From: Deltaproteobacteria bacterium
Lineage (GTDB): Bacteria; JAEEML01
Direction: 5' to 3'
Length of the DNA stretch: 37,609 bases
Assembly: GCA_016283195.1 (NCBI GenBank)
Contig: JAEEML010000069.1
Coordinates: 1-37,609 of the forward strand
The translations under genes and the position numbers were made by a program. Below are positions 32,948 through 34,348 of the stretch, piece by piece (the first letter of the stretch is position 1; the number at the start of each line of letters is the position of its first letter). The notes below the pieces were generated by a model. The model was not told where the DNA came from, searched no databases, and saw nothing but the letters and a program-made list of their open reading frames with translations.

Positions 32948-33016
32948 CGGGCATTGTAGCGGCGTAAAATTGCAGAAATTGTAGAGGCGTAAAATATTAC
33001 GCCTCTACAATGCCCG
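32948..33016. repeat. Nested inverted repeat, REP/MITE-like, at the end of the RtcA-like gene
   Basis: The unit ATTGTAG(A/C)GGCGTAAAAT occurs directly at 32953-32970 and 32978-32995, and inverted at 32997-33011. Copies two and three form a 15-bp perfect palindrome (ATTGTAGAGGCGTAA, loop AATA). The outer arms CGGGCATTGTAGCGGCGTAA (32948-32967) and its inverted partner (32997-33016) match at 19 of 20 positions. The stop codon of the RtcA-like gene (TAG, 33005-33007) lies inside the inverted copy. It could act as a terminator for that gene or be a small palindromic element. Confidence 0.85.
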
Positions 33017-34024
33017 CACAGTCACTACAGTACCATCATTTTGCGGCCTGGCTGCGACATGGCCCGGGGCAAAAGCCTCAGCCAGATTGAGGAGAACTTG
33101 ACATTCTTGAGAGAGGGGAGGAGCCAAAAATTCGCCGCCTCCAAGAGCTAACATGGGAATAATCAGCTGATAAGTGAGTTTTTCCGAAACGGGAAAAACA
33201 CTTTGCATATATTCTATAAGTTCGGCAGTGGCATCCTCGGCTACTTTTTCGGCCCGCACACCGCGCTGGCCCACTCCTGAAACCAGCATATTAAGGTTTT
33301 CATAATAGAGAGCCAGATTGATGACATTGCCTGTTGTTGGCGAATTATCAAACACAATATGGCACTCTTTGGCCGGCCAGCCCAGGCGACTATGGGCCAC
33401 GGCTAATTCACGCTCGGCGATATGGCCCGGCAAATTGGCATTAATAACTGTTAGTTTGCGCTTTATAAGAGCGCCGCGCTCCAGAAGTTTTAGCGGCTTA
33501 TGCTGTACTGCCGGGTGAATATCCAGCTGAATTTTACCGCCACCGACGGGATAAAAACCACGTTGCCCGGTATGAAAATCATAATGGCCGCCCATTTGGC
33601 TCAAAAGTGGAAAATAACATTCGGCTAAATAGTCCACTGTGGGCATACCGGCCAAATGGGTTACTCCTTGCAGTTTTAATAATGAAGGGCTTTTTTGCCG
33701 GGCCAGAGCTGGAAAAACAGTGGTGAGAGTCTGGCCTATATTATTGGAATTCTGGCTGGTGAACATAACAAGGCCGCTTTTTATTTCTCCGGGGGTAAAG
33801 GTGAGACTGTCCTGCCCGATGGCCCCACCTATTATGGCGGCATTGCTTATATCGGCCGCAGCCTTTATTAAGGCGGCATCAGCGGAGGAAAAGCCGCTTT
33901 GACCGCCGACTTTATAATCACTAAAGTTAAATGCCCGGCCGGTGACAAGTGACAAGGCTAGGGCAGAGCTTAAGCACCAGGAGTCAGCCTGAAACAAAGC
34001 GCTGTTTATAGTAATTTCGGCCAT
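33005..34024 (-). CDS. rtcA: RtcA/RCL-family protein (RNA 3'-phosphate cyclase-like), catalytically degenerate
   Basis: RtcA converts RNA 3'-phosphate ends to 2',3'-cyclic phosphates through an adenylylated histidine. The 339-residue protein keeps the fold's landmarks: SSALALSLVTGRAF, FPAL, LAGMPTVDYLAECYFPLLSQMG, GFYPVGGGKIQLDI, GHIAERELA and YQLIIPMLALGGGEF. Compared with E. coli RtcA from memory, two essential parts are changed. The N-terminal GEGGGQILR motif is FQADSWCL (residues 11-18), and His309, the adenylylation site, is Gln309 in ECQVLLNL. It is therefore probably not a cyclase; eukaryotic Rcl1 is a known non-cyclase relative. No rtcB or rtcR is adjacent. It is divergent from tRNA-His, has GAGGAG upstream, and an inverted repeat precedes it. 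Confidence 0.85.
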   Translation of the reverse strand: MAEITINSALFQADSWCLSSALALSLVTGRAFNFSDYKVGGQSGFSSADAALIKAAADISNAAIIGGAIGQDSLTFTPGEIKSGLVMFTSQNSNNIGQTLTTVFPALARQKSPSLLKLQGVTHLAGMPTVDYLAECYFPLLSQMGGHYDFHTGQRGFYPVGGGKIQLDIHPAVQHKPLKLLERGALIKRKLTVINANLPGHIAERELAVAHSRLGWPAKECHIVFDNSPTTGNVINLALYYENLNMLVSGVGQRGVRAEKVAEDATAELIEYMQSVFPVSEKLTYQLIIPMLALGGGEFLAPPLSQECQVLLNLAEAFAPGHVAARPQNDGTVVTVRAL

Positions 34025-34188: not shown

Positions 34189-34202
34189 CTTTTTCGCTCG
34201 GT

Positions 34203-34278
34203 GCTGCCTTAGCTCAGCTGGTAGAGCGCCTGACTGTGGCTCAGGAGGTCGTAGGTTCGAAGCCTGCAGGCAGTACCA
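34203..34278 (+). tRNA. tRNA-His (anticodon GTG), lacking encoded G-1
   Basis: The cloverleaf is complete: acceptor GCTGCCT (34203-34209) with AGGCAGT, D arm GCTCAGCTGGTAGAGC, anticodon stem CCTGA/TCAGG around loop CTGTGGC (anticodon GTG), T arm GTAGG-TTCGAAG-CCTGC, discriminator A73 at 34275 and encoded CCA (34276-34278). Bacterial tRNA-His normally carries an extra G-1 opposite C73. Here the base before G1 is T (34202), position 72 is U (G1-U72 wobble) and position 73 is A. This is the non-canonical form I know from a clade of Alphaproteobacteria. A T-rich run follows at 34281-34289, without a separate hairpin. Confidence 0.95.
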
Positions 34279-34348
34279 CTTCTTTTTTTCCCCTACAATT
34301 ATTTTCTTCTTTAAAAGAGGCTGCTTAGACGTGAGTGGCTTTTTCGGT

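Follow-up and report, generated by a model that had tools for sequence, protein, structure and literature searches.

The extra 5' G of histidine tRNA (G-1) is almost universal. The window analysed here, a 37,609-nucleotide stretch on contig C104 of the assembly GCA_016283195.1 (genome G000), carries a tRNA-His gene in which no G-1 is encoded. We wondered how a bacterium outside the Alphaproteobacteria came to have such a gene: according to reviews, the only bacteria with G-1-less tRNA-His are a group of alphaproteobacteria (PMC4284800, PMC6471195, PMC9976931), the loss of G-1 in bacteria was judged to be likely a single event (PMC3937112), and eukaryotic transfer has been weighed against convergence as its origin (PMC5370408). 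The literature that we searched, which did not cover Ardell and Andersson 2006, Wang 2007 and Yuan 2011, contained no report of a bacterial case outside the alphaproteobacteria.

ARAGORN found one tRNA in the window, a tRNA-His (GTG) on the forward strand at 34203–34278, with the CCA end encoded (34276–34278). It scored 65.6 bits against the Rfam tRNA model and is thus a real tRNA. As in the canonical bacterial system, folding gave an ordinary cloverleaf, here with a 7-bp acceptor (strands GCUGCCU/AGGCAGU), and the anticodon is GUG (34236–34238, position 34 by ARAGORN). Unlike in the canonical system, G-1 and C73 are missing: position -1 (34202) is U, G1 (34203) pairs with U72, and the discriminator is A73 (34274–34275 for U72 and A73, with A73 at 34275). 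ARAGORN, direct reading of the sequence and the fold thus confirmed the T at -1, the G1-U72 pair and the A73 that had been noticed from the sequence alone. In Caulobacter, the identity elements of tRNA-His in vitro are A73, U72 and the anticodon (PMC9976931). Among the typed genomes, G002, G005, G023, G027, G176, G302, G293, G155, G200 and G407 have a canonical tRNA-His with G-1 and C73, so the combination in the window is not background. Just upstream of the tRNA, on the opposite strand, lies a gene for RtcA (RNA 3'-terminal phosphate cyclase; 33005–34024), and a promoter and terminator scan gave nothing convincing.

Does the genome hold anything that could take the place of this gene or complete its product? 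The sequence-only reading had named two findings that would speak against it, a second canonical tRNA-His and an ordinary HisRS combined with post-transcriptional addition of G-1. The Rfam tRNA model gave 45 matches in G000, 44 of which were assigned an anticodon by ARAGORN, and the window gene was the only one for His; the remaining match (G000:C54:1-74) is truncated by the contig end and has no ARAGORN type. Apart from the window gene, a tRNA-His-shaped pattern with up to 3 mismatches matched nothing in G000 that has TGTG at the anticodon. A single HisRS passed the TIGR00442 cut-off (G000:C61:14305-15777, minus strand, 490 aa), and its motif-2 loop has Gly where canonical enzymes have Gln (KPQKGR), placing it in the G-1-independent type. 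The same replacement in the RRCH enzymes of alphaproteobacteria covaries with the loss of G-1:C73 (PMC3937112, PMC9976931). Thg1 (PF04446) is absent from G000. Because the genome has neither a second tRNA-His, nor an ordinary HisRS, nor a known G-1-adding enzyme, both objections fail; a second canonical tRNA-His, a second HisRS and a rescue of G-1 by Thg1 were accordingly rejected.

A nucleotide at -1 could still be present in the mature tRNA, if RNase P kept U-1 as a U-1:A73 pair or if an unknown enzyme added G-1. U-1 could indeed pair with A73, and in the fold of 34196–34282 the leader GGU (34200–34202) pairs with A73-C74-C75 of the precursor, adding 3 bp to the acceptor helix. U-1 also recurs in most A73-type genes of the other carriers described below; G, opposite A73, stands there in G406, G323 and two Planctomycetota MAGs. 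However, leaders removed by RNase P commonly end in U, and no acceptor-extending pairing was found in the leader of the G335 tRNA-His; the GGU/ACC pairing in the window precursor is possibly a chance product. The missing Thg1 and the alphaproteobacterial homologues that reviews report to lack G-1 (PMC4284800, PMC6471195, PMC3875453) also argue against a -1 nucleotide, which we regard as quite improbable. The RNase P cleavage site is most likely +1, which would yield a tRNA-His without G-1.

The sequence-only reading had also allowed for a wrong placement of the genome. G000 is the only sampled genome of its GTDB phylum, and every sampled relative shares only the domain with it. A tree of RpoB grouped the named alphaproteobacteria in a clade with 100/100 support that excluded G000, whose nearest neighbours were G267 and G335, genomes of other phyla. 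The RpoB tree and the GTDB grouping thus reject a misplaced alphaproteobacterium. One or both contigs might instead come from another organism, as the 3.22-Mb assembly is 100% complete but consists of 190 contigs and has an estimated contamination of 4.18%. Against this, the tetranucleotide correlation to the rest of the genome was 0.984 for C104 and 0.977 for C61, versus 0.18–0.43 for loci from other genomes, and the two contigs hold the sole tRNA-His and the sole HisRS of a complete genome. They carry matching halves, both with the composition of the genome. Misplacement is thus unlikely and contamination very unlikely. One other contig of the assembly, G000:C127 (L336), deviates clearly in its tetranucleotide make-up (0.749).

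Where else does this kind of pair occur? The best named matches to the G000 HisRS were mostly alphaproteobacterial (47–56% identity), and those from other groups were 'bacterium RA.bin91' (58%) and three Planctomycetota MAGs (51–55%). A survey of 385 other genomes across the domain revealed enzymes of the same kind in G335 (60%), G404, G139, G267, G007, G054, G199 and G334, and more distant ones in G405, G016, G323, G374 and G297; G406 was added later. In G267, a second HisRS-like match is HisZ-like. We searched these genomes for tRNA-His with a 3'-anchored pattern and a covariance model, as a full-length pattern missed the alphaproteobacterial genes owing to their D-loop length. A73 is present in every readable tRNA-His of the carriers and G-1:C73 in none; most of them have U at position 72, with C1:G72 in G016 and the three Planctomycetota MAGs. 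The motif-2 loop position of the carrier enzymes is Gly, Asp, Glu or Ser but never Gln, the residue found in three of the C73 genomes whose HisRS was available (G176, G293 and G155). Thus, the same kind of pair is present in about ten lineages outside the Alphaproteobacteria, counted as separate branches of the RpoB tree and not as named phyla, and including Planctomycetota. The sequence-only reading had called the window combination the exact set of an alphaproteobacterial clade: the set does match, but it is not confined to that clade.

Two departures from these rules were seen. G302 (L204, L223) combines a Gly-loop HisRS (RPGHGR) with a tRNA-His of the canonical G-1:C73 type, which means that Gly by itself is no predictor of G-1 loss. 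A third form of tRNA-His, with U73 and without G-1:C73, occurs in G055 (L347), G409 (L348) and possibly G029 (L066); the HisRS of G409 keeps a Gln-type loop (KPQAGR) and that of G055 has Lys.

We examined the arrangement of the two genes. Thirteen non-alphaproteobacterial genomes (G335, G406, G404, G139, G054, G199, G405, G374, G297, RA.bin91 and the three Planctomycetota MAGs) carry the A73 tRNA-His upstream of hisS in the same orientation, 29–174 bp from the portion of hisS that was aligned. In G267, the tRNA gene is convergent with hisS and 70 bp downstream of it. The genes are apart in G007, in G016/G323 and in G000, where the tRNA is on C104 and hisS on C61. The named HisRS matches gave 80 hisS loci; besides those of RA.bin91 and the three Planctomycetota MAGs, these comprise 76 that are alphaproteobacterial or presumed so, and none of the 76 had a tRNA-His in the examined flanks of up to 3 kb. 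The pair of G000 thus resembles the linked units of other bacteria in its A73 tRNA-His and in its homologous HisRS without the loop Gln, usually the only HisRS of the genome, but differs in its separate contigs and, relative to the Planctomycetota MAGs, in lacking their C1:G72. Its hisS has mazG, MATE-transporter and YcaO genes as neighbours, and directly upstream, where many relatives have tRNA-His, stands a tRNA-Ala(GGC) (L001 2932–3007, on G000:C61). Searches for carriage of the enzyme on mobile elements showed no carrier: all HisRS matches above about 43% identity in the plasmid search belonged to alphaproteobacterial genera, with the others more distant, phage matches reached at most 28% identity, and viral contigs gave none.

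Was an RRCH alphaproteobacterium the direct donor of the G000 pair? The two systems are alike in the missing G-1, U72, A73, the Gly in the motif-2 loop and the lack of Thg1, most of the best named matches are alphaproteobacterial, and a transfer of this sort seems to have happened in G267. We placed hisS in a HisRS tree rooted on canonical-type enzymes. The sampled alphaproteobacterial enzymes, which were chosen by similarity and do not include Caulobacter, Rhizobium or Pelagibacter, formed one clade with G267 inside (100/96, and 100/98 in a second tree), and this clade was nested among non-alphaproteobacterial lineages. The G000 enzyme fell outside it and grouped with G335 with moderate support (91/51; 90/87). 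Several nodes of the trees were only moderately supported, and G297, G374 and G405 were long or weakly placed. The G000 enzyme is 58–60% identical to that of G335 versus about 53–56% to the best alphaproteobacterial ones (at most about 56%), and it has REFYQCDFD where the sampled alphaproteobacteria have RQFxQxDAD. Forcing it into the alphaproteobacterial clade was disfavoured, marginally when it was moved alone (AU p=0.043) and more clearly when it was kept with G335 (p=0.0056). The tRNA agrees: it is closest to the tRNA-His of G335 (85%), with canonical ones at 58–68%. A direct alphaproteobacterial origin in a host that is itself not alphaproteobacterial is thus improbable. G267, which is non-alphaproteobacterial by RpoB (L191/L299, G267:C2), has an A73 tRNA-His and a HisRS nested in Hyphomicrobiales; it apparently gained its pair separately, recently and directly from within the alphaproteobacteria.

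The same comparison bears on convergence, in which G-1 was lost in the G000 lineage while an ordinary HisRS adapted independently. Non-canonical tRNA-His did arise more than once, as the U73 forms show. Yet the G000 enzyme is 50–60% identical over its full length to the alphaproteobacterial and other A73-type enzymes, versus 33–41% to canonical types, and the HisRS tree speaks against an independent adaptation, which is hardly credible here.

An ancient G-1-less pair might also have been inherited vertically, shared with the alphaproteobacteria and other phyla, and followed by many reversions to the canonical state. The A73 family is wide, and the RpoB tree puts G000, G335 and the alphaproteobacteria at no great distance from one another (a set with 98/98 support). 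However, the relatives of carriers keep canonical pairs, as the suggested comparison of tRNA-His across genomes showed. In family f164, G406 has the A73 pair and G200 and G407 have a G-1:C73 tRNA; in family f232, G335 has the A73 pair and G408 and G409 have Gln-type HisRS (the tRNA-His of G408, an incomplete genome, was not found). These six genomes belong to one phylum. G293, which falls in the same RpoB clade as the Planctomycetota MAGs, has a canonical pair. Replacement among relatives is thus visible in two groups, the phylum of G335 and this RpoB clade, and canonical tRNA-His or Gln-type HisRS also recurs near carriers in G176 and G155. Further, distant lineages share the linked arrangement, and the Planctomycetota HisRS are close to the alphaproteobacterial ones. 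We therefore consider vertical inheritance with reversions unlikely as a general account, while G000 and G335, which share an RpoB neighbourhood, may have inherited their pair vertically from a common source.

One genome carries what is possibly a trace of an earlier tRNA-His. In G374 (G374:C19, L217 1480–1545), the 3' half of a canonical C73 tRNA-His lies beside a tyrosine-recombinase-like ORF (1711–2673), and the intact tRNA-His is of the A73 type. We rejected the half gene as a second tRNA-His, as it looks like an integration scar.

Taken together, these results suggest that G000 has a co-adapted pair of a G-1-less tRNA-His and its HisRS, which probably reached it laterally out of a pool that spans several bacterial phyla. 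The sequence-only reading had offered lateral transfer of a tRNA/HisRS pair as one possibility; it is favoured because a matching HisRS is present in a non-alphaproteobacterial host without a second tRNA-His or Thg1, but the alphaproteobacteria need not be the donor because those sampled are nested in the non-alphaproteobacterial pool. The transfer most likely ran from the pool to G000. Against lateral acquisition, a single genome is sampled in the phylum, so patchiness inside it is invisible, and the two genes of G000 do not share a contig. The window gene is the only tRNA-His found in a bacterium whose phylum, not an alphaproteobacterial one, is poorly sampled, and it is probably functional. 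By homology with Caulobacter, the HisRS of G000 should rely on A73, U72 and the anticodon, and not on G-1:C73, to recognise the tRNA, and the pair would probably be orthogonal to the canonical one. The genes, usually neighbours in the pool, would have become separated in G000. The tRNA-His of Trypanosoma brucei and Acanthamoeba likewise lacks G-1 and is served by a HisRS that works without it, but these are eukaryotic systems with another HisRS solution (PMC4284800).

This distribution contradicts the published statements of a single origin in the alphaproteobacteria. Because the pair is patchy in several unrelated groups and its genes are often neighbours, lateral spread appears to account for a trait that was considered unique to a single clade of alphaproteobacteria. 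The pair was found in about ten other lineages, often with adjacent genes and alongside relatives that are canonical, which points to a bacterial source for the alphaproteobacterial trait. We give about even odds to a broader scenario: a unit of tRNA-His and hisS, with identity rules of its own, passes intact from one bacterial phylum to another, replaces the resident pair at one stroke and was the origin of the supposedly unique trait. The linked pairs and the canonical relatives indicate that a tRNA identity can cross phylum borders as a whole. G-1-less tRNA-His is thereby weakened as a phylogenetic marker, and the carriers add candidate orthogonal HisRS/tRNA-His pairs for genetic-code work.
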